The position numbers and the translations under genes are program-made. From Bradyrhizobium sp. 1(2017) (GTDB taxonomy: Bacteria; Pseudomonadota; Alphaproteobacteria; Rhizobiales; Xanthobacteraceae): 64,000 bases of DNA. Below the pieces are notes generated by a model that was not told the DNA's origin, did no database searches, and saw only the letters and a program-made list of their open reading frames with translations. The DNA lies in contig NZ_CP050022.2 in the NCBI RefSeq assembly GCF_011602485.2, positions 6,282,001 to 6,346,000 on the forward strand, given 5' to 3'. Shown piece after piece: positions 25,478 to 41,120 of the stretch; the first letter of the stretch is position 1; each line of letters starts with the position of its first letter.

Positions 25478-25588
25478 GTCAGGAGCTTAGAACGAGGGTC
25501 GCGTCGCGGCCAAGACGGTCCGGAACCGTATCCAAAGGAACCACACCGGTCTTGCTCGAAACCTCTGTTTTTCGAAACCTTTGCCCCC

Positions 25589-25594
25589 TATATT
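25589..25594 (+). promoter_or_regulatory. ssrA -10 element
   Basis: TATATT lies about 7 bases before the presumed start of the tmRNA precursor at the hairpin GCCGG-TTCG-CCGGC. I do not see a strong -35 box. Confidence 0.45.
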
Positions 25595-25600
25595 GCGAGT

Positions 25601-25932
25601 GCCGGTTCGCCGGCTATGGAAATAAACGGTCGTCGCAATAAACCATTCGGACCCGGGGGCGGTACCCGGCGCCTCCACCAAAGCCCACTCGGGCGTGCCC
25701 AGGAAGCGGGCTTTGGCGGGGGCGAAATAGGATCGACGAGGGCGTAAAGGGCGTGCTTTTTCCCGGTATTGTTCCGCCGTTATCGGGCTACTGCAATAGT
25801 TGCCAACGACAACTTTGCTCCGGTTGCTCAGGCTGCGTAACGCAGTTTGAAAGACCACTTTAAAGTCCTAGCGGGTTAAGCTCCGCTAGGCGGGGTTCGG
25901 AGGCACCTGGCAACAGAAGCCTCCACTTTGCT
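25601..25932 (+). ncRNA. ssrA: tmRNA, circularly permuted two-piece form
   Basis: The acceptor piece comes first and ends ACCCGGCGCCTCCACCA at 25680. The coding piece begins at 25718 with GGGGGCGAAATAGGATCGAC. The acceptor stem pairs GGGGGCG with CGCCTCC and carries the G3-U70 wobble used by alanyl-tRNA synthetase. The two pieces are joined by a 37-base loop; with adjoining bases, CCAAAGCCC pairs with GGGCTTTGG, and this loop is cut out on maturation. The tag frame (25802-25840) follows TAGTT and reads ANDNFAPVAQAA, then TAA. A terminal stem (GGAGGC and GCCTCC) and TTTTT follow. The outer ends are approximate. Permuted ssrA is established for alphaproteobacteria. Confidence 0.93.
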
Positions 25933-28084: not shown

Positions 28085-28359
28085 AATTCCGAATTCCGAT
28101 AGCCATCCGTAGTGATACGGACGCTCGACCCGCAGAATTATAGGGCTTTAGGGGCGGGATTTGATTACCGTCAATGTTCCGGCGGGGCAGCGTGCTACGC
28201 AGCCCTCTGCCCTCGACGGGGCGAATTCATCGTTTGATGGCCCAAGGGCCGATTGACGAGGACAAGCATATGGCGATCAAGTCTTCTGGGGCGCATTGCG
28301 GCGCCCTGTTTGTGAACGTTTCATCCGGCACAAAGAGGAGCGGGTGATGGAGACGCGGC
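28085..28359. other. Intergenic region with a FixK-type box and a micro-frame
   Basis: This 275-bp gap holds TTGATTACCGTCAA (28161-28174), an imperfect hairpin TCCGTA-GTGA-TACGGA after fumC, and a 25-codon frame at 28270-28347. The frame has GAGGA upstream of its ATG. Whether the frame is translated is unknown. Confidence 0.5.
28161..28174 (+). promoter_or_regulatory. FixK/FNR-type box
   Basis: TTGATTACCGTCAA fits TTGA-N6-TCAA exactly. A start about 41 bases downstream of its centre would be near 28209, ahead of the DUF4169 and RHH genes. Confidence 0.55.
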
Positions 28360-28548
28360 ATGGGGAACGTCATCAACCTGAATCGTTTCAGGAAGCGCGC
28401 CGAGCGGGAAGCCTCGGCGAAGCAGGCGGACGCCAACCGGGCGAAGTTCGGTCGCACGAAGGCGGAGCGGTCGGCGGAGGAGAAACGGGCGGACCAGGCC
28501 AAGGAGCATCTGGACCAGCACCGGATCGATCACGAGGAGCAGCCATGA
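28360..28548 (+). CDS. DUF4169 small basic protein
   Basis: This 62-residue, highly charged, probably helical protein begins MGNVINLNRFRKRAERE and fits DUF4169, a family of unknown function. GGAG precedes the ATG by 7 bases. Its stop overlaps the next gene as ATGA. The first residues NVINLNRFRKR closely resemble the C-terminal tail of the SspB encoded 1.8 kb upstream (EVVRLDRFRKK). That may mean it also docks on ClpX; this is inference. Confidence 0.75.
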   Translation: MGNVINLNRFRKRAEREASAKQADANRAKFGRTKAERSAEEKRADQAKEHLDQHRIDHEEQP

Positions 28549-28796
28549 AGTCGCCCGTCGTGAAGCGGTCGATCGTCGTCGCCGGTCACAAGACGAGCGT
28601 CAGCCTGGAAGAAGCGTTCTGGAACGGCATGAAGGAGATCTCGGGCCTGCGCAACATGACGCTGTCCGAGCTCGTCGGCGAGATCGACAACAACCGGCAG
28701 CAGGGCAATCTGTCGTCGGCGATCCGCCTGTTCGTGCTGGACTACTTCAAGACCCGCGCCATGGCCGTCCAGCCGGAAAAGGTCCCGGCCCAGTAG
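28545..28796 (+). CDS. Ribbon-helix-helix domain protein
   Basis: This 83-residue protein looks like a ribbon-helix-helix DNA-binding protein. The strand VVKRSIVVAGHKTSVSLEEAFW is followed by the helices FWNGMKEISGLRNM and TLSELVGEIDNNRQQGNLSSAIRLFVLDYF. It overlaps the DUF4169 gene by four bases, a pairing I regard as recurrent in alphaproteobacteria. Probable role: transcriptional regulator of unknown targets. Confidence 0.75.
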   Translation: MKSPVVKRSIVVAGHKTSVSLEEAFWNGMKEISGLRNMTLSELVGEIDNNRQQGNLSSAIRLFVLDYFKTRAMAVQPEKVPAQ

Positions 28797-31296: not shown

Positions 31297-32220
31297 CTAG
31301 TATCCGTCACCCCATCGGTATTGCCACGCCAATCCGACCAGATTGAACCCGCTGCCGGTGCGGCTGTAGATACCCGTACTGGCATTGAACTTGACTGAAT
31401 TTTGCCGGTTGATGGGCACGGCGACCGTGAAACCTGCCCGCAGGTTCTCTTGCTCATTGTCGCCGGGCAGACCGTTCAAGGTGGTGCGTGCCCCCTTCAG
31501 GTAAAGGCCGTCCAGCGAAAACCATGCGCCTGAATCGAGGTTGCGAATGACAGCTCCCCGAACCAGATAGAGGGGTGCCTGCGCGAGCCGGTTGCCGATG
31601 AAGAAATCCCGATTGTCGGTGAAGAATGTGACACTCGGAGCGACCTCGAAGGTCCATGGGCCCCATGCTTTGGAGATGCCGAGCTCCGGCCTGAACGACC
31701 AGCGGTTGACGCCGAGATTGAGCAGCTTGTTGTCGTCATATTGCCCCAGGGGGGCGGACACCTGGAGGCTAATGCCGACCAGAATGTCCTGCTTGTAGTT
31801 CGCGAACTCCTTCAGCGGCAATGCCGGGGCTCCAAAGAGGTTCATGGTGACGCGGAAGCGCGGGTCGCCAAAGCCATTCATTTCCCGTTCGCGCGGCACG
31901 TCCGCAACGAGGCCGTGCGCGGAAAACGTTGAGTACGGAACGATCACATCGAATTTGGCGGATTGGCCGAACAGATCGAACGACCGCACATAGGCCATTG
32001 CGCCGGTATGGGCTTCGAACTTCGTATCGGCGACCGCGAGTGATGGATCGAACGCCAGCCTGCCCTGCGAATAGAGGTAACCCGAGATCAGGAAATTGAG
32101 CCCGACCGGCGTGTTGCTGTAAAGCCTTGGCTCCGCATCCTGACCGTTTGCCTCCGCCGCGATGATGGTCGCCGCGAGGGCAAGACCCGTGCGAATACGA
32201 TTGCGGATCCTGTCATTCAT
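31297..32220 (-). CDS. Outer-membrane MetA-pathway-of-phenol-degradation-like protein
   Basis: This 307-residue exported protein has a signal peptide (RTGLALAATIIAAEANGQ) and a beta-rich body of the Phenol_MetA_deg/transporter family. It has alternating aromatic strands such as PVGLNFLISGYLYSQG and RFRVTMNLFGAPA, and ends WQYRWGDGY. Family members are thought to be outer-membrane channels, with function largely unproven. The start at 32220 follows AGGAG. It diverges from the exported-protein gene at 32383; a FixK-type box lies between them. Confidence 0.72.
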   Translation of the reverse strand: MNDRIRNRIRTGLALAATIIAAEANGQDAEPRLYSNTPVGLNFLISGYLYSQGRLAFDPSLAVADTKFEAHTGAMAYVRSFDLFGQSAKFDVIVPYSTFSAHGLVADVPREREMNGFGDPRFRVTMNLFGAPALPLKEFANYKQDILVGISLQVSAPLGQYDDNKLLNLGVNRWSFRPELGISKAWGPWTFEVAPSVTFFTDNRDFFIGNRLAQAPLYLVRGAVIRNLDSGAWFSLDGLYLKGARTTLNGLPGDNEQENLRAGFTVAVPINRQNSVKFNASTGIYSRTGSGFNLVGLAWQYRWGDGY

Positions 32221-32274: not shown

Positions 32275-32288
32275 TTGATCTATCTCAA
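32275..32288. promoter_or_regulatory. FixK/FNR-type box A
   Basis: TTGATCTATCTCAA fits TTGA-N6-TCAA exactly. It lies 55 bases before the MetA-like gene and 95 before the gene at 32383, so it could serve either direction. Confidence 0.7.
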
Positions 32289-32382
32289 TCCCCAGCACGG
32301 CCGACGACGTGAGTTGGTTCGCCTGGTCGGGCAACAAGGGAGTTGTCGTTGCCCCGCCGGATTCGCTGTGTCGGAGGTGAAA

Positions 32383-32745
32383 ATGAAGCGAGCCGCACTC
32401 GTGACAACCATCCTCGCCCTTGGGACGATTCTTCCTGGGATGATTGCTGGAGCCGGGGCCCAATCCCAGGCCGTGCAATGTTCGTCCTACTACATTTCCG
32501 AGATCACTCTCGTATCGACCGCCGACGGCGAGGCCGGGCATGTTCAGACCTTCGTGGGGTTTGGTCCCTCCAAGGAAGAGGCAGAGAACAAGGCGCTTGG
32601 GTGGTGCTCGCACATCAGGTTCGATCTTGAGACGTGCGTGAACTCGGATCGCGCCACCGCTCGCAATTCGGCTTCGGAGGGCGGCAGTGGTTTGCTGCAT
32701 CTCAAATACAGGAAGGCGGTCGCGCGCATTACCGGGTGTAGCTAA
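32383..32745 (+). CDS. Small exported protein of unknown function
   Basis: The 120-residue product has a signal peptide (KRAALVTTILALGTILPGMIAGAGAQ) and a small mature domain with four Cys (QCSSYY, WCSHIR, ETCVNS, ITGCS), suggesting disulfides. The start at 32383 is chosen for GGAGG upstream. A FixK-type box lies 95 bases before it, placing a class-II promoter start about 60 bases from the ATG. No family recognised. Confidence 0.65.
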   Translation: MKRAALVTTILALGTILPGMIAGAGAQSQAVQCSSYYISEITLVSTADGEAGHVQTFVGFGPSKEEAENKALGWCSHIRFDLETCVNSDRATARNSASEGGSGLLHLKYRKAVARITGCS

Positions 32746-32854
32746 ATCTGGCTGTGCCGTCTTGCGATGCTCATCTCGCGCGTCGCCGCCGCGATCAAGT
32801 CGGCCAAGGTTCGACACAACCTTTTCGGACCGCGGCGTAACGGCCCCCGCAAGG

Positions 32855-32868
32855 TTGATCTACATCAA
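32855..32868 (+). promoter_or_regulatory. FixK/FNR-type box B
   Basis: TTGATCTACATCAA is a perfect TTGAT-N4-ATCAA palindrome. Its centre is 100 bases upstream of the ATG at 32962. Confidence 0.75.
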
Positions 32869-32961
32869 CGTGATCGATCCCTGGAAGAACAGGTTGAGGC
32901 CGGCGCAGAGGAAACGGCTCTCGTCACCTGCATTTCGGAAAAAGCAACCGGGAGGACCATC

Positions 32962-33225
32962 ATGAATCCGAGAAAGCGTTTTTCGATCAAGTCCATGACA
33001 GTTTCAGGCCTGGCTGCCAGCGCCCTCCTGGGTCTCGCAGGCGTGACGCTCAATCCGGCACCGGCCGCCGCGGTCGTGTATTGCCAGTACGTTGACTATC
33101 CGGTTGGTTGCGTCGCGCGGTCGGGCGTCGTGCTGAGGCCCCGGCCCGTCGCGCGTGCTGCGGTCCGTCACAATGTCGGCGGCAACGCAAATGGCGGCGT
33201 CAATCGGGTCGGCGCGCGACGCTAA
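32962..33225 (+). CDS. Small exported basic protein of unknown function
   Basis: This 87-residue protein has a long signal peptide (to about residue 37, NPAPAAA). The short mature part has two Cys (VVYCQYVDYPVGCVA) and an Arg-rich tail ending NGGVNRVGARR. GGGAGG lies upstream of the ATG. FixK-type box B precedes it. No family recognised. Confidence 0.65.
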   Translation: MNPRKRFSIKSMTVSGLAASALLGLAGVTLNPAPAAAVVYCQYVDYPVGCVARSGVVLRPRPVARAAVRHNVGGNANGGVNRVGARR

Positions 33226-33519
33226 GGTCTGACCTGGGGGCCACGACCGGAGCTGGTTGCTGCGGTGTATTCATGCGCGGAAGCCGCGCAGCAGTCTTGG
33301 TTGGGCTGCACGCAGCTTCGAGCTCCGCACTTGTGTGACTCGCCTCCCCTGCCTGATACTCCGTCGGGCAAGACACTGGCCCAACGGCACCATCGAAGCT
33401 GCCCGATCCGAATATCTTTGCGTGCTTGATCTGAATCAAGCTTCGCTCGCGCAACGAATCCGAGAATGGCGCAACGTCGTCGCAAACTGGGCCCATTTGG
33501 GGGGCACGGAGCGACTGGG
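33226..33519. other. Intergenic region with FixK-type box C
   Basis: These 294 bases hold box C (33426-33439) and, at 33361-33398, a segment similar to 31208-31246. No gene is supported. Confidence 0.45.
33426..33439 (+). promoter_or_regulatory. FixK/FNR-type box C
   Basis: TTGATCTGAATCAA is a perfect TTGAT-N4-ATCAA palindrome. A promoter start about 41 bases downstream would be near 33474. Confidence 0.75.
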
Positions 33520-33972
33520 ATGCCGCTTTTGGCGTATTTCTGGAAGGTCGGAGCGGCGCTGCTCGCGCTCCTCTTCGTTGCGGACTTTTGTCTGCCGAAA
33601 GTGCCGATCGCGGAGAAGGCGGTTGAGGACCGGCCGGCGATACACATTCACTCGGATCGCAAATGGCCCGAGCGCGTGGCCCTCGACACCAGCATGCCGG
33701 TCATCGTCGCAGCAGCGCCCGAAATCGCAATCGCGCAGGCCACGGCTCTCCCCGTCCCTCCGGAGCCACCGATCGTCCGGGCGGAGACGCTCGCAGTTGC
33801 CAATGCACTCGCCATGGTACGCACGGGTCCGCCTCCGCGCGAGGCCGTCGATCGGCAGCGGAGGCCCAAGTCCCAACGCATCGCAAAGCGATCGAAGCGA
33901 CATGCGCCGCCGCAAATGGTTCTGGCCGCGCGGCAGGGACAATTCGCCTGGTTCGGGTATAGGTACTGGTAG
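33520..33972 (+). CDS. Single-pass membrane protein of unknown function
   Basis: This 150-residue protein begins with one membrane segment (LLAYFWKVGAALLALLFVADFCL). A Pro/Ala-rich periplasmic part follows, and the basic tail ends QFAWFGYRYW. I choose the start at 33520 over 33466 because box C predicts transcription from about 33474, after the earlier ATG. No family recognised. Confidence 0.55.
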   Translation: MPLLAYFWKVGAALLALLFVADFCLPKVPIAEKAVEDRPAIHIHSDRKWPERVALDTSMPVIVAAAPEIAIAQATALPVPPEPPIVRAETLAVANALAMVRTGPPPREAVDRQRRPKSQRIAKRSKRHAPPQMVLAARQGQFAWFGYRYW

Positions 33973-34061
33973 ACCGCGCGACGTCAGATGCGCTGCGCCT
34001 GACCATGAACCTCAATGCGCCCGGCGCCCGGCGACGACCCGGACGCCGATGCCGATGGCAT

Positions 34062-34301
34062 CTATTGGTACAAGGCGCAAACGCCTCCCTGCCAGCGAAC
34101 ACATCGACGCACCGCCCGGCGCGTCTGGCGGACCGTCGTCCTTGCGACGCATACGCCGTTGATCCGCGTTCGTCCCACGCCGCAAGCAGCCGCAACCGGC
34201 GTGATCATGCTCTCCGGCTGAGGAATCGGAGCAGGCGTCATACCTTGGGCCGAGGTCCCGACCAGCAAGGCGAAAGTCACGATAGCGAGCCACCTCATCA
34301 T
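34062..34301 (-). CDS. Small exported Cys-rich protein of unknown function
   Basis: This 79-residue protein has a signal peptide (RWLAIVTFALLVGTSAQG) and a mature region with four Cys (AACGVG, GVCVAR, RRCVRW, GVCALY), so two disulfides are likely. AAGGAG lies upstream of the paired start codons. No FixK-type box is apparent before it. It sits among similar small exported proteins. Confidence 0.6.
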   Translation of the reverse strand: MMRWLAIVTFALLVGTSAQGMTPAPIPQPESMITPVAAACGVGRTRINGVCVARTTVRQTRRAVRRCVRWQGGVCALYQ

Positions 34302-34412
34302 TGTGAGTCTCCTTTCGTCGAAGGATGAAGGCCTGTCCGACAGTCTCCAGCCGCATTGCCATCCTGCACCGACGGTTCCAGCAATCTCGGCGTCGAAGGC
34401 TGCGGCAGGAAC

Positions 34413-34435
34413 GGAGGCGGCGAGCGGCCGCCTCC
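34413..34435 (-). terminator. Hairpin after the 34.4-kb small gene
   Basis: Arms GGAGGCGG and CCGCCTCC enclose 7 bases. It starts 12 bases past the stop of the gene ending at 34448, on its strand. Confidence 0.5.
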
Positions 34436-34447
34436 TTCTGCAGTTTC

Positions 34448-34774
34448 CTATTGGCAAACATACATGATGCCGTCGCCGCCCTTGACGAGCGTGCCCGGCG
34501 TGCAACCAATGCCATTGCGAGCGGCATAATCCGCCCAACCACTATAGCGGTAGTTCCAGGGGCCACCGGCGTAATAGGCTCGCACCGCGTACCAGGGCAG
34601 GCCCGCCTGGTCCGCGATGTAGCCGCCGCGATAAAGCGGCCCAACATAGATCCTATCTCTTGCTTCGGCGCTGCTGATCGAAAGCGACAGCCGGCCCTGC
34701 TCGGACCAACTCAATGACATCGAGGCTGCGCACGCGAACGCGGCAGCCGCCACTGTCAGTCGTTTTGCATCCAT
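34448..34774 (-). CDS. Small exported protein of unknown function
   Basis: The 108-residue protein has a signal segment (KRLTVAAAAFACAASMSLS). The Tyr/Gly-rich mature part contains RIYVGPLYRGGYIADQ and YYAGGPWNYRYSGW, and ends CTPGTLVKGGDGIMYVCQ with two Cys. The start at 34774 is set by GGAGG at proper spacing. A FixK-type box (D) lies 63 bases upstream. No family recognised. Confidence 0.65.
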   Translation of the reverse strand: MDAKRLTVAAAAFACAASMSLSWSEQGRLSLSISSAEARDRIYVGPLYRGGYIADQAGLPWYAVRAYYAGGPWNYRYSGWADYAARNGIGCTPGTLVKGGDGIMYVCQ

Positions 34775-34837
34775 ATTCGCCTCCATAGGCTGGTGAGATC
34801 CAGCATGCGGAGCGTGAAAAGCGTTCGAGCGTCGATA

Positions 34838-34851
34838 TTGCGCTAGATCAA
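34838..34851. promoter_or_regulatory. FixK/FNR-type box D
   Basis: Read on the minus strand it is TTGATCTAGCGCAA, fitting the relaxed TTG(A/C)-N6-(T/G)CAA FixK pattern. It lies between the gene starting at 34774 and the broken channel gene starting at 34940. Confidence 0.55.
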
Positions 34852-34939
34852 GCTGCGACCCTTTCTCACACAGGCATATGCTCTTCATCGCGCCGCCCGC
34901 CCGCGGATCGACGGCCGACAACGAACGCACGAGGGGAAG

Positions 34940-35627
34940 ATGGCGACAAAGGAGCGGCTGCGACTGAGCCTCAACGGCTGGCTGCACACGCTGTTGACAT
35001 TCCTGCTGATTCTATCGTCTTCGTGCTTGCGCCCTCGCAGGCCACCGGGTTGTTTGCTCTTCACGGAGGGGCGATCACCATCCTGCTGGCGGTCATCGCG
35101 GGCATGGCGATGATCTCGTAGAGCAAGACAGCGCTTCTCATGATGTCGCTCGCGCTGCTCATCAACATCTCCGTCTTCTTCGAGCGCGCTATTACTATGC
35201 GTGGCCTTACAACCTTCACCTTCTGGCGCGGGCCCGGCTGGTGATCGCGGCGACTCTCGGTTTCGTGGTCACGAGAGCGGTGTTTGGCCCAGGCTATGTC
35301 AGCCACCACCGGATCGTCGGCGCCGTACTGGTCTATCTGCTGATTGCTGTTGGATTTGCCTGCATATTCACGTTTCTGGGATTATCGATCGACGGTGCAT
35401 TCAAGGGAATCGAATTCGAGGATGACCGCTCGCTCGCGAGCAAGGTCTTCTATCTCAGCTTCGCCACGCTGATGACGACCGGATATGGCGATATCGTACC
35501 GGTCCATCCCTGGGCGAGAAGTCTCTGCAACATCGAAGCGGTGATCGGGCAACTCTATCCGGCAACGCTCCTGGCAAGACTCGTCACGCTCGAACTCGGC
35601 GAGCAGAAGCGACCCATTGACCGATGA
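34940..35627 (+). pseudogene. Broken two-helix potassium channel
   Basis: The start (MATKERLRLSLNGWLHTLLTFLL) loses frame near 35012, continues as IVFVLAPSQATGLFALHGG, and meets an in-frame TAG at 35119-35121. It changes frame again near 35188 to YYYAWPYNLHLLARARLVIAA. The rest (35241-35627) is intact: a helix, the selectivity filter TTGYGD in ATLMTTGYGDIVPV, and a last helix. The family is an Ion_trans_2-type K+ channel. Two frameshifts and one stop make loss of function likely, unless the intact 3' part (start at 35241, 128 residues) is still used. Confidence 0.75.
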
Positions 35628-35802
35628 TGTGCTGCCGAACGCAGCACTTGCCTGTTACTTGGTACAATGCACGTTAGTACGATAGTCACCGGTTCCCGCT
35701 TCGAACAAGCTTGATTACGGCCAGAACGAGGCGGCGCGACCCCCGAGTCTCACGCGCTGCGACTGACAAACCCGATCGTCATGAGATTGAGGAGTTGGTC
35801 CG

Positions 35803-36486
35803 ATGCTGATGCACTTGACCTCGGCTTCCCTGCCCCGCCCGCATTCTCTCAGTGAACTCGGAATGATCGCGGACTCCAATCCGATGATCAGCCTGAGCGA
35901 GTTCAAATACCGGCGCGGTAGCGAGATCTACGGCGAGAAGGAGCCCGCCGAGTATATCTACCAAGTCAAGTCGGGGACGGTACGAAGCTACAAGCTGCTG
36001 CCCGACGGACGCCGGCAGATCAACGCATTCCATGTCCCCGGCGACATCTTCGGATTGGAGAACGGCGGGGTGCATCGCTTCACGGCAGAAGCCGTGGTGG
36101 ACACGACCGTGCGCCTGATCAGGCGCGAGAGCCTCGACAGTGCCGCCGAAAATGACGGCGCGCTGACCAGGAATCTGCTCCGCATGGCCACGACGAATCT
36201 TCGGCATGCGGAGAACCACATGCTTCTGCTCGGGCGCAAGAGGTCGATGGAGCGGGTTGCCGCCTTCCTGATCGAAATGAACGGACGGCTCACTGCCGCA
36301 GGTATCCTGGCGCTGCCGATGACCCGGCGCGACATCGCGGATTATCTCGGCCTGACGATCGAGACCATCTCGCGGTCGCTGTCGTATTTGCGCGAGCTCG
36401 GCATCCTCCGCTTCATCGACAACAACCAGCGTCACCTCGTCATCCTGGACATGCAGCAACTCGCGGCATTCGACCGGCAGAATTGA
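35803..36486 (+). CDS. Crp/Fnr-family regulator, FixK-like
   Basis: This 227-residue regulator has an N-terminal cyclic-nucleotide-fold domain (EYIYQVKSGTVRSYKLLPDGRRQI; FHVPGDIFGLE). A C-terminal HTH_Crp follows: MTRRDIADYLGLTIETISRSLSYLRELGIL. The recognition helix ETISR matches the E-x-x-S-R set that reads TTGA half-sites in FNR and FixK. There is no Cys cluster, so it does not sense oxygen by an iron-sulfur centre. It lies beside several FixK-type boxes and could be their regulator, or one of several. GAGGAG lies upstream. Confidence 0.88.
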   Translation: MLMHLTSASLPRPHSLSELGMIADSNPMISLSEFKYRRGSEIYGEKEPAEYIYQVKSGTVRSYKLLPDGRRQINAFHVPGDIFGLENGGVHRFTAEAVVDTTVRLIRRESLDSAAENDGALTRNLLRMATTNLRHAENHMLLLGRKRSMERVAAFLIEMNGRLTAAGILALPMTRRDIADYLGLTIETISRSLSYLRELGILRFIDNNQRHLVILDMQQLAAFDRQN

Positions 36487-37340: not shown

Positions 37341-37887
37341 CTAGTCCCCCCTTTGCTTAAATATCTTCCGTCAGAAGCGAGGCCTTTGTGCAGGCTGGCG
37401 TCCACAAATGCTGCGAACAACCTGCAGTTTACGCAGGCGCCGGCTTTCGGCCGTAACAAAATGGCAACACTCAAACGCTCTACTCTATGCACGGAATCGT
37501 GCTTAGCGGCGTTTGAAACTGCAAGCGTTGAGCTGAAGTTGCCATCCCTCATCGGCATCGCGAATGCCGGGAACGGCGCATCGTGTCGGGTTGCTGGAGC
37601 AGGCGAACTACCTGCTCACGGCGAAGACGTCGTGATTGCCGCATCCAGCCGTCAAGGCCGCATTGAGCCAGACAAACCGACGTCGGCCTCCGGGGAATCG
37701 CTCGCGGTCCAGTTTGGACCCGACACCGCTTAAAGAGAATGGTCCGCCGGCATGCGACAATGCCTGTCCCTGGGAACTTGATCTCCGTTCAAGAGTTCCT
37801 CGTATGGACCTCGTTCGGTCCAGCCCCCTGGGCTTGGGCGCCCGCGGCAAGTGCGGGCTTTCGGAAAGACTTTCGCAAGGGGGTTCA
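37341..37887. other. 547-bp region before the KaiC-like gene
   Basis: I find no convincing gene. The stretch must contain the porin promoter on the minus strand and that of the KaiC-like gene. At 37773-37800 it has the imperfect inverted repeat GGAACT...AGTTCC containing TTGA-N7-TCAA, one base too long for a FixK box. Confidence 0.4.
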
Positions 37888-39405
37888 ATGACCGGTCCAT
37901 CCAAGGCTGCTGCAGACAGCGAGCTCAAGGATTTGCCGAGAGTGTCCACGGGCAGCGAGGGCCTGGACGATATCCTCGGCGGCGGTTTCGACGCCAACCG
38001 GATGTACCTCTATGAAGGAAGGCCCGGCACCGGCAAGACCACGATAGCACTTCAGTTTCTGCTCCGAGGCGTGCGCGACGGTGAACGCGTCCTCTATATT
38101 TCCCTCTCCGAGACTAAACGCGAGCTCACCGTGGTCGGACAGCGGCACGGCTGGTCGCTGGAAGGCGTCGACATCTTCGAACTGGTGCCGCCCGAAACGA
38201 CGCTGGATCCCGAGCGAGAGCTCACGGTGTTTCATCCCGCCGAGATGGAGCTGAACGAAACCACCAATCTCGTCTTCAAGGAAGTCGAACGGATCAATCC
38301 GACGCGCGTGGTGCTCGACAGCCTGTCCGAACTCCGGCTGCTTGCCCAGAACCCGCTACGCTACAGGCGCCAGGTGCTGGCCCTGAAGCATTTCTTCACC
38401 ACCCGCAATTGCACGGTCGTCCTGCTCGACGACCTCTCATCGTCCCAGGACGATCTGCAACTGCATTCGATCGCGCATGGCGTGGTCATGCTCGAACAGC
38501 TCGCGCTCGACTACGGCGCGGAGCGGCGGCGGCTTCGCGTGATCAAAATGCGCGGTATCAAATTTCGCGGCGGCTTCCACGACTTCATCATTGATAGAGG
38601 TGGTCTAAAGATCTTCCCCCGTCTGGTGGCGGCCGAACATCACAGATCCTTCCTCGGAGAGTTCACGACGAGCGGCAACGCCGAATTCGATCAGCTTCTC
38701 GGAGGCGGCCTCGAGCGCGGCACCAATGCGCTGCTCATCGGCGCAGCCGGCGTGGGTAAATCCTCGGTCGCCCTGACCTACGCAATCTCGGCGGCCCAGC
38801 GCGGCGAGCATGCCGTCTTTTTTGCCTTCGACGAAGGTCGCGGCACGGTTGAAGCGCGCGCGCGGACACTCGGCCTCGGGCTCGAGCAGCACCTCGAGTC
38901 GGGCCGAATCCGCTTCCAGCAAATCGATCCGGCCGAACTCTCGCCCGGCGAGTTCGCGGCGAATGTGCGCGCGAGCGTCGAACGCGACAATGCCCGCATC
39001 GTCATCATCGACAGCCTGAACGGCTACCTGAACGCGATGCCGGACGAGCGGTTTCTCATCCTGCAAATGCACGAGCTCCTGAGCTACCTCGCGCAGCAAG
39101 GCGTGCTCACGATCTTGATCCTTGCGCAACATGGGCTGGTCGGGCCGACGGATACCAATCTCGACATCAGCTATCTCAGCGATGCCGTTCTCATGCTGCG
39201 CTATTTCGAACTCGGCGGGACCGTGCGCCGCGCTCTCTCGGTGGTCAAGAAGCGCAGCGGACATCACGAGCATACGATCCGCGAGTTCAGACTGACGCAT
39301 TCAGGCATCAAGCTCGGTCCGCCTCTCAAGGATTTCAGCGGCATCTTCACCGGCACTCCGCACTATACCGGACCGGCGATGTCGTCGGAAGGGGCCGCTG
39401 AATGA
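37888..39405 (+). CDS. KaiC-like double RecA ATPase
   Basis: The 505-residue protein has two KaiC/RecA domains. Walker A is EGRPGTGKTT (residues 43-52) in the first and GAAGVGKSS (about 285-293) in the second. Residues at the catalytic Glu pair read SLSETKREL in the first and FAFDEGRG in the second. In KaiC the phosphorylated pair is Ser-Thr; here the aligned positions in DISYLSDAVLMLRYFE are Ser-Tyr. No kaiA or kaiB is near. AAGGGGG lies before the ATG. Its stop overlaps the histidine kinase start, so the two probably form a signalling unit. Confidence 0.88.
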   Translation: MTGPSKAAADSELKDLPRVSTGSEGLDDILGGGFDANRMYLYEGRPGTGKTTIALQFLLRGVRDGERVLYISLSETKRELTVVGQRHGWSLEGVDIFELVPPETTLDPERELTVFHPAEMELNETTNLVFKEVERINPTRVVLDSLSELRLLAQNPLRYRRQVLALKHFFTTRNCTVVLLDDLSSSQDDLQLHSIAHGVVMLEQLALDYGAERRRLRVIKMRGIKFRGGFHDFIIDRGGLKIFPRLVAAEHHRSFLGEFTTSGNAEFDQLLGGGLERGTNALLIGAAGVGKSSVALTYAISAAQRGEHAVFFAFDEGRGTVEARARTLGLGLEQHLESGRIRFQQIDPAELSPGEFAANVRASVERDNARIVIIDSLNGYLNAMPDERFLILQMHELLSYLAQQGVLTILILAQHGLVGPTDTNLDISYLSDAVLMLRYFELGGTVRRALSVVKKRSGHHEHTIREFRLTHSGIKLGPPLKDFSGIFTGTPHYTGPAMSSEGAAE

Positions 39406-41120
39406 GCGTCGAGCGAGATCAAAACGTTCTCGTCTTCGCTCCGATCGGCCGCGACGGACCTGCAACTGTCGAGTTGCTCAGAGGATCGAGCCTGCAGGCC
39501 GTCAACTGCAGAGATCTTCCCGAGCTCGTCAGCGAGATCGCCGCCGGCGCCGGTGCCGTTTTCCTCGCCGAGGAAGCCTTGTTCGGCAAGGACACGGCAT
39601 CGCTGGCACAATGGATCGAGAACCAGCCGCCCTGGTCCGACCTGCCTTTCGTCGTCCTGACCAGCCACCGCGAGCAACCGGCCGTCATGGCCTGGCGGCG
39701 CAACATCGTCGCGCTTCTGCGCAACGTTTCGCTGCTCGAGCGGCCGGTGCAGCCGATGACGCTGACCAGCGCCGTTCAATCGGCGTTGCGCGCACGGCGG
39801 CGCCAGTACGAAATCCGGGCCCTGCTCGCCGCGCGCGAGCAGACGGCGCAGGAGCTCGAGAAGCTGGTGGTGGAGCGGACGCGGGCGCTGGAGGAAGCCA
39901 ACGAGCAGCTTCGCCTCGAAATGAAGGAGCGCGCCCGGGTCGAGGAGACGCTCCGCCAGGCCCAGAAGATCGAGGCCATCGGCCAGCTCACCGGCGGCGT
40001 GGCGCATGACTTCAACAATCTGCTGATGGTGATCTCCGGCGGCCTCGACTTGCTCGACCGCCAGACCGACCCGAGCCGTCGTCGCCGCCTGATGGACGGC
40101 ATGATCCAGGCCGCGCAGCGCGGCGCCAGCCTGACCAAGCAGCTACTGGCGTTCTCGCGCCGGCAGACGCTTCGTCCCGAGCCCGTCGACATCGCCACGC
40201 AGATCGGCGGCATGCGCGAACTGCTCGATCGAAGCCTGCGGGGCGACGTCCATGTCGAGCTCGATTTTCCGGATCAGCTCTGGGCGGTGGAGGTCGACCC
40301 GGGCGAGCTCGAGCTCGTCATTCTCAATCTGGCCGTCAATGCCCGCGATGCGATGCCCAATGGCGGGACCATCACCGTCCGCGGCGAGAACCTGCCCGAC
40401 CTGCGTGATGCGGACATTGCGGGCGACTACGTGCGGCTGTCCGTCATCGATACCGGCGTCGGCATGGGTCCGGAAATCCTGTCGCGGGTCTTCGAACCGT
40501 TCTTCACGACGAAGGACGTCGGCAAGGGATCCGGCCTTGGGCTGGCGCAGGTCCACGGCTTCGCGACCCAATCGCGCGGAACGGTCCGCATCAAATCGCA
40601 AGTCGGCCATGGCACCAGCATCGAGCTGTACCTGCCTCGCTCGCGAAATCTCGCCTCCAAGCAGCGCCACCTGATCGAGCTCAACAGGATGACACGTCCG
40701 AAGAAGGACGGCCAGGGCCAGATCCTGCTGGTCGAAGACGACGACGAGGTCGCCGCCCTCGTCGGCGAGATGCTTGATCAGCTTGGCTACCAGGTCACAC
40801 GGGCCGCCAGCGCTGCAGCTGCACTCGGCGCGTTGGCCGATGGACGTACCGTCGATCTGGTCTTTTCGGACATCATGATGCCGGGCGGCATGAACGGGGT
40901 CGAACTTGCACGAGAGATCAGGAAACGGCGCAGCGACGTCCCAGTCGTGCTGACCAGCGGATATGCGGAAGCGGCGATTCAGGAGGCCGAAGCGGCGGGT
41001 ATCCAGATATTGGCGAAACCGTACCACCTCGACGAGCTGGCCGCGGCCCTCAGCGCGGCAAAGCCGGACGGTCGATCCGAGTCGGGGTCGAAGCGCCTGG
41101 GTTCTCTGCTGGGCTCGTGA
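39402..41120 (+). CDS. Hybrid histidine kinase with C-terminal receiver
   Basis: The domains in order are as follows. An N-terminal receiver-like domain (about 8-128) has the phospho-Asp region reading VFLAEEAL, so it lacks the acceptor. A coiled coil follows (about 140-185). HisKA has GGVAHDFNNLL (His near 201). HATPase_c has the N box NLAVNARDAM, G1 DTGVGM and G2 GSGLGLAQ. The C-terminal receiver has LLVEDDDEV and the acceptor in FSDIMMPG (about residue 490). No membrane segment is seen, so it is cytosolic. It overlaps the KaiC-like gene by four bases, and KaiC or its ATP state may be its input. The 3' end overlaps the opposing gene by 71 bases. Confidence 0.9.
   Translation: MSVERDQNVLVFAPIGRDGPATVELLRGSSLQAVNCRDLPELVSEIAAGAGAVFLAEEALFGKDTASLAQWIENQPPWSDLPFVVLTSHREQPAVMAWRRNIVALLRNVSLLERPVQPMTLTSAVQSALRARRRQYEIRALLAAREQTAQELEKLVVERTRALEEANEQLRLEMKERARVEETLRQAQKIEAIGQLTGGVAHDFNNLLMVISGGLDLLDRQTDPSRRRRLMDGMIQAAQRGASLTKQLLAFSRRQTLRPEPVDIATQIGGMRELLDRSLRGDVHVELDFPDQLWAVEVDPGELELVILNLAVNARDAMPNGGTITVRGENLPDLRDADIAGDYVRLSVIDTGVGMGPEILSRVFEPFFTTKDVGKGSGLGLAQVHGFATQSRGTVRIKSQVGHGTSIELYLPRSRNLASKQRHLIELNRMTRPKKDGQGQILLVEDDDEVAALVGEMLDQLGYQVTRAASAAAALGALADGRTVDLVFSDIMMPGGMNGVELAREIRKRRSDVPVVLTSGYAEAAIQEAEAAGIQILAKPYHLDELAAALSAAKPDGRSESGSKRLGSLLGS

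Follow-up and report, generated by a model that had tools for sequence, protein, structure and literature searches.

The closest described counterpart of the arrangement presented here is the FixLJ-FixK2 regulon of Bradyrhizobium diazoefficiens. In published work, the FixK2 binding consensus is TTG(A/C)-N6-(T/G)CAA (PMC9104804, PMC5582078), the FixK2-dependent nosR gene has one start 40.5 nucleotides (nt) from its box and a second at 67.5 (PMC5582078), and the hypothetical FixK2 targets include bll0818, bll6525 and bsr6066 (PMC9104804, Table 2). We analysed a 64-kb stretch of Bradyrhizobium sp. 1(2017), positions 6282001-6346000 of its 7.86-Mb genome (hereafter, the window), focusing on four FixK boxes, the small protein genes behind them and a neighbouring FixK-like regulator. 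After the boxes come A, B and C on the plus strand, D and G on the minus strand, a broken ion-channel gene, the regulator and an outer-membrane beta-barrel gene (OMP).

We consider it likely that this stretch is a mosaic of FixK-regulon promoters, in which small exported proteins would be activated in class-II fashion at low oxygen. This reading is based on the boxes, their conservation, their fixed spacing to a -10 element, the return of these families at further boxes, and a genome that encodes FixJ and FixK2 and has boxes before its cbb3 oxidase genes. When oxygen is low, each box, centred about 40.5 nt before the start, would be bound by an activator of FixK type, the most likely one being FixK2, produced by way of FixL-FixJ. 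Acting in class-II fashion, this activator would recruit sigma-70 RNA polymerase, and from every promoter one small protein would be made and exported to the envelope (A, B, C or D), with G perhaps produced by read-through from D. We infer the binding, the induction at low oxygen and the activator involved from the sequence.

Exact copies of TTGA-N6-TCAA start at positions 32275, 32855 and 33426, while the site at 34838, TTGCGCTAGATCAA, carries one mismatch and on the minus strand reads TTGATCTAGCGCAA, which fits the FixK2 consensus. All four boxes match the consensus palindrome and are found inside 2.58 kb, in agreement with the preliminary description of this DNA, which reported four boxes in less than 3 kb, each preceding a small exported or membrane protein; the second point also stands, with the amendment that box 34838 serves D on the minus strand. 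In the whole window, the exact motif was seen four times vs. 0.31 expected, and none of 100 shuffles reached four; genome-wide, it was found 138 times vs. 20 for a reversed-pattern control. The tighter pattern TTGATCTANNTCAA had 20 forward and 12 reverse matches in the genome, vs. 0 and 0 for the controls. Among 60 genomes of the genus, it was matched in 57, many with one or two copies only, and the control counts were zero except in G005 (1), G029 (1) and G051 (2) (G-numbers are genomes searched, L-numbers fetched loci). If the 138 boxes were evenly spread, three boxes within 1152 nt would occur somewhere in the genome with p ~0.028. The clustering by itself is only mildly unusual, and the strong evidence is conservation.

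To describe conservation, we counted boxes within 150 nt upstream of the start codon in the distinct upstreams of fetched homologous loci (mostly the best-scoring). Matches were left out when they started after query residue 25, lacked a start codon or had less than 150 nt of sequence before it, and each set of identical upstreams was counted once. Copies from the genome itself were counted; E, F and G were first met beside boxes or in the window, so their own copies are not independent. The exact box was present in 35/44 upstreams of B, and in 31/31 of those at ≥64% identity, 68-127 nt before the ATG across the family. For D, the exact box was found in 15/43 upstreams and the exact or relaxed form in 28/43, rising to 21/24 at ≥50% identity; in each of the three upstreams at ≥85% identity, one of which is the window's own, TTGATCTAGCGCAA itself is found 70 nt before D. 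G carried the exact box in 16/31 and either form in 18/31, and C had a box in 12/42 overall and in 7/11 at ≥50% identity. The values for A, E and F were 6/14, 7/11 and 12/27, respectively. Conversely, no box was found among 115 control gene upstreams (OMP 0/26, FixK-type genes 0/85, FeoB 0/4), and a control inside the genes gave the exact box in no family and the relaxed form in D alone (4/43). In the B promoters, the eight fixed box columns hold 1.5-2.4 bits, while 53 flanking columns have a median of 0.21 and reach at most 1.08, at position 37. B and D show strong conservation of the box, C and G partial conservation, and A weak conservation. The refuting outcome named in the preliminary description, genes conserved without their boxes, was not seen for B and D, whereas C and A pass this check partially.

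The spacing between box and promoter was evaluated on boxes located 55-125 nt from the start, after thinning the promoters at 80% identity and numbering the first base of the box as 1. An A at position 37 together with a T at position 41 occurred in 37/89 promoters, vs. a mean of 3.9 per offset; using C, D and G alone, the pair was found in 18/45 vs. a mean of 2.1. With a box centred at -40.5, these positions correspond to the two key bases of the sigma-70 -10 element. A box position of -40.5, the class-II geometry, is thereby predicted statistically across the families. Among the window promoters, B and D fit the fixed -10 spacing exactly, and C is shifted by one base. The leaders predicted with the box at -40.5 are 61 nt for A, 60 for B, 47 for C and 30 for D; the earlier estimate that three of the four starts fall 46-60 nt before the ATG, which assumed about -41.5, agrees with the first three. 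The start of C previously placed at 33466 was instead rejected: homologues align from 33520, and the predicted transcription start (~33473) falls after 33466.

Then, we evaluated whether the genes of the window travel together. Elsewhere in the same genome, boxes accompany B together with an exported protein rich in Gly and Tyr and an E-like protein with Arg repeats (4.43 Mb); B and two D-like copies at 4.18 Mb, where E has no box in 150 nt; C, B and F at 7.80 Mb, where a G copy has none; and G at 4.40 Mb. At 3.23 Mb, a copy of A has a box 214 nt away. For the other genomes, pairs within 6 kb were counted from match places entered by hand at E-values of our choice (for C, down to ~67 bits), omitting weaker matches and counting a fragmented gene once; for B and C, only the 72 genomes G000-G071 were used. 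Among genomes holding both families, we found B-C in 8/13, B-D in 7/13, D-G in 12/20 and A-D in 4/9, far beyond chance (at most 0.05 pairs expected per combination); the other pairs were A-G in 3/8, B-G in 2/8, C-D in 4/11 and C-G in 3/11. Because FixK boxes elsewhere are found with single families or with different groupings of them, we read the stretch as a mosaic of separate, mostly one-gene promoters. The single microaerobic unit proposed in the preliminary description is not upheld, also considering that the regulator is kept without any of A-D at three loci (L017, L018 and L020).

Several observations weigh against the mosaic of FixK promoters. Pairing with the box is loose for A and C: C has neither the exact nor the relaxed form in 4/11 close homologues and in 30/42 overall, A has no box in 8/14 upstreams, and the A promoter of the window has no good -10 match at the fixed spacing. 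A and B were paired in 0/3, and A and C in 0/4, of the other genomes holding both. Related upstreams are not fully independent of one another. Lastly, besides three FixK-like proteins, the genome encodes one protein with Cys 15, 18, 26 and 114, a pattern that we take to be of FNR type.

Given this protein, the main reader of the boxes could instead be an FNR-type iron-sulphur protein, or else the nitric oxide-responsive NnrR, with anoxia or nitric oxide as the cue. Indeed, CRP/FNR proteins read closely related sites. We regard this as unlikely: the boxes and the -40.5 geometry match published FixK2 targets, and FixK2 is present together with box-bearing fixN and fixG. More precisely, FixJ scores above the NCBIfam cut-off in this genome, and FixK2 is encoded at 2.434 Mb, beside fixJ, with Cys183 and a full-length match to PDB 4i2o (E 4.9e-139). 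The cbb3 oxidase genes ccoN/fixN and ccoG/fixG are also above cut-off, with boxes 65 and 64 nt before the ATG, respectively. A symbiosis or nitrogen-fixation setting was considered and rejected, as nifH had no match over the family cut-off in this strain; a NodA search gave no match, but the NodA control likewise matched in no genome, so that this result does not demonstrate absence.

The regulator bordering the boxes was described as FixK-like and without a Cys cluster, and both points were confirmed. It has PF00027 (cyclic nucleoside monophosphate-binding domain) and PF13545 (Crp-type helix-turn-helix) above cut-off, contains no Cys, so no iron-sulphur Cys cluster, and has FixK2 (4i2o, E 3.2e-73) as its best PDB match. 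On the NCBIfam FixK equivalog NF050806 (cut-off 300 bits), it scores 211.5 and the genome's FixK2 scores 235.3. Since the genome's own FixK2 also falls short, the model is narrow, and we name the regulator FixK-like, not a FixK equivalog. With six relatives it forms its own clade (95/99 support), apart from FixK2 (60% identity) and from the copy at 3.23 Mb (68%), which we infer to be FixK1. Within this clade, three proteins lack Cys altogether; the other four carry between one and three, in no case at position 183. The regulator reads LPMTRRDI vs. LPMCRRDI, with Thr replacing the redox-sensitive Cys183. Its identification as FixK2 was rejected on the basis of the separate clade, the missing Cys183 and the true FixK2 found beside fixJ. 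In the same tree, the FixK of a locus labelled Frankia sp. RB7 (L040) falls inside Bradyrhizobium; that assembly is probably mislabelled or contaminated.

Could this Cys-free FixK be the dedicated regulator of a self-contained microaerobic island? It does stay with C, D and OMP in L016 and L021, with C and OMP in L019, and with C and D in G002 and G022 (D being a fragment in G002). Furthermore, FixK-like genes lie within 10 kb of B in 7/23 genomes holding both (own included), giving 10 pairs vs. 0.20 expected. However, L017, L018 and L020 hold the regulator and OMP and none of A-D (in L018 and L019, only 4.1 and 2.0 kb of contig precede the regulator), the same families have boxes elsewhere in the genome, away from a FixK gene, and B keeps its exact box in at least nine genomes without a FixK at ≥75% identity (G005, G007, G010, G012, G017, G020, G030, G036 and G042), so that we judge a dedicated role quite improbable. 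Further copies of the regulator at ≥75% identity were found only in G002 and G022 among the 44 genomes of the genus searched. Six loci have a close copy: three of them contain C and two contain D, while B and an A remnant are each present in one. The regulator gene of the window has no box in its 150-nt upstream. On these comparisons, the association of B with FixK duplicates is real, if not obligatory, and the bordering regulator appears not to be needed for the box-gene link, since B and its box persist where a close copy is absent. Probably, the Cys-free FixK supplements the other activators as an extra that is insensitive to oxidation, rather than being a dedicated requirement. In three genomes (G016:C2, G034:C81 and G040:C55), a B gene is flanked on both sides by FixK-like genes, the two lying on opposite strands.

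That the boxes are chance or neutral palindromes before unrelated small open reading frames (ORFs) is very improbable. In favour of this reading, about 20 of the 138 exact genome motifs are expected by chance, the closeness of three boxes is only mildly significant and A and C often have no box in relatives; but conservation across the families, set against the empty control upstreams, and the fixed -10 spacing both speak against it, and conservation contradicts it for B and D.

The coordinates of the features are collected in the table below.

Table. Boxes, -10-like elements and genes of the FixK-box stretch (window positions; aa, amino acids).
Feature	Position	Strand	Remarks
Divergent PF13557 gene	31297..32220	-	shares box 1 (61 nt); -10-like CAGGCT one base beyond norm
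FixK box 1, TTGATCTATCTCAA	32275..32288	+	centre 101 nt before A ATG and 61 nt before divergent gene 31297-32220
Gene A	32383..32745	+	120 aa, exported (predicted), 4 Cys after signal
FixK box 2, TTGATCTACATCAA	32855..32868	+	100 nt before B
-10-like hexamer CAGGTT, B promoter	32890..32895	+	A and T at fixed positions
Gene B	32962..33225	+	87 aa, exported (predicted), cationic, 2 Cys
FixK box 3, TTGATCTGAATCAA	33426..33439	+	87 nt before C
-10-like hexamer GAGAAT, C promoter	33462..33467	+	one base farther from box than family norm
Gene C	33520..33972	+	150 aa, N-terminal membrane anchor, cationic proline-rich tail
Gene G	34062..34298	-	78 aa, exported (predicted), cationic, 4 Cys; fifth small exported protein, downstream of D
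Gene D	34448..34774	-	108 aa, exported (predicted), Tyr/Gly-rich, conserved 2-Cys C-terminal motif
-10-like hexamer CACGCT, D promoter	34811..34816	-	A and T at fixed positions
FixK box 4, TTGATCTAGCGCAA, relaxed form	34838..34851	-	centre to D ATG, 70 nt
FixK-like CRP/FNR regulator	35803..36486	+	227 aa, no Cys

The divergent gene is a possible further target of box 1. Frame changes or stops interrupt the ion-channel gene (34941-35627), whose final portion matches PF07885, and tblastn with its open part as query found no channel homologue in L016-L021. It is possible that box 34838 drove this plus-strand remnant; yet the D box is kept in L016 and L021, where the same search found no channel. 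FeoA and FeoB lie upstream of the island. The fourth exact box of the window, TTGATTACCGTCAA (28161-28174), stands between fumC and the small ORFs 28296-28796 and 28360-28548, 746 nt before feoA, and an identical box precedes feoA by 738, 743 and 741 nt in L016, L017 and L021. This box is conserved, perhaps as a promoter element of these small ORFs. A second cluster, with four exact boxes in 6 kb, was found at 978000-997000 of the same genome (L096), where the boxes precede a family F copy and genes resembling those for arylsulfatase and DUF1254 proteins; a remnant of B and a copy of E lie near (names from reading the sequence). On the other side of the island, at 37636-41120, it is adjoined by a KaiC-type ATPase gene and then a hybrid histidine kinase and receiver gene, also named by reading the sequence. 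The sole known RNA element in an Rfam scan of the window was an alphaproteobacterial permuted tmRNA (RF01849) at 25562-25927.

Regarding the products, the export calls rest on reading the N-termini and on a hydropathy value rather than on a signal-peptide program. No Pfam or NCBIfam model matches A, B, C or D above its cut-off, and the Pfam matches of G are weak and all below cut-off. Family A is present in 11/146 genomes of the genus, B is large (1816 clusters at E 0.001), C is found in 72/120 genomes and is confined to the genus of the window, and D is matched in 129/146 genomes, many matches being to the C-terminal part alone. The charge predicted after export is +6.8 for B, +9.2 for C, +2.7 for D, +7.5 for G and -1.0 for A. 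The predicted structures of A (single-sequence) and D (36 sequences) had predicted local distance difference test values of 44.0 and 54.5, too low for a fold search. G has no box within its own 150-nt upstream in the window, while its homologues elsewhere do have boxes, and it is perhaps co-transcribed with D by read-through. In literature search listings and in passages of PMC6515984, PMC9104804, PMC5582078 and PMC10454721, no description of these families was found, which is not a claim that they are unpublished.

A role of the products in adjusting the envelope during microaerobic respiration, as small, mostly cationic, periplasmic or membrane-anchored proteins, is our leading guess, which we offer tentatively. 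More speculative, and in our opinion rather doubtful, is a wider idea: seven or more lineage-specific families of small proteins (A-G, most exported), reshuffled across the genus and tied together by FixK-box promoters and recurrent FixK duplicates, could form a dedicated microaerobic envelope programme, part of which the Cys-free FixK would keep active under oxidation of FixK2. Among the genes that FixK2 activates, many are annotated as hypothetical or unknown, and the box-anchored families provide a short, testable list that recurs across Bradyrhizobium. As they occur in a strain without a nifH match over cut-off, their role should concern microaerobic life generally, beyond nodules. Moreover, the Cys-free FixK offers a naturally occurring comparison for FixK2 and its redox switch at Cys183.

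Overall, the observation of the preliminary description is confirmed and its interpretation is supported in part: the locus displays a known kind of regulation with little-explored targets. It shares with the FixLJ-FixK2 regulon of B. diazoefficiens the box consensus, the position near -40.5, FixJ and FixK2, and boxes before fixN and fixG. It differs in that its targets belong to families of small exported proteins that no Pfam or NCBIfam model matches above cut-off, and in that the strain has no nifH match over cut-off. The regulator of the window resembles FixK2 (PDB 4i2o), its best PDB match, in the CRP/FNR domains, whereas it has Thr for Cys183, no Cys at all and a place in a separate clade. 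It is closer to the FixK1-type copy at 3.23 Mb, with 68% identity, the same 227 aa and likewise no Cys, although the regulator and its six relatives form a clade of their own.

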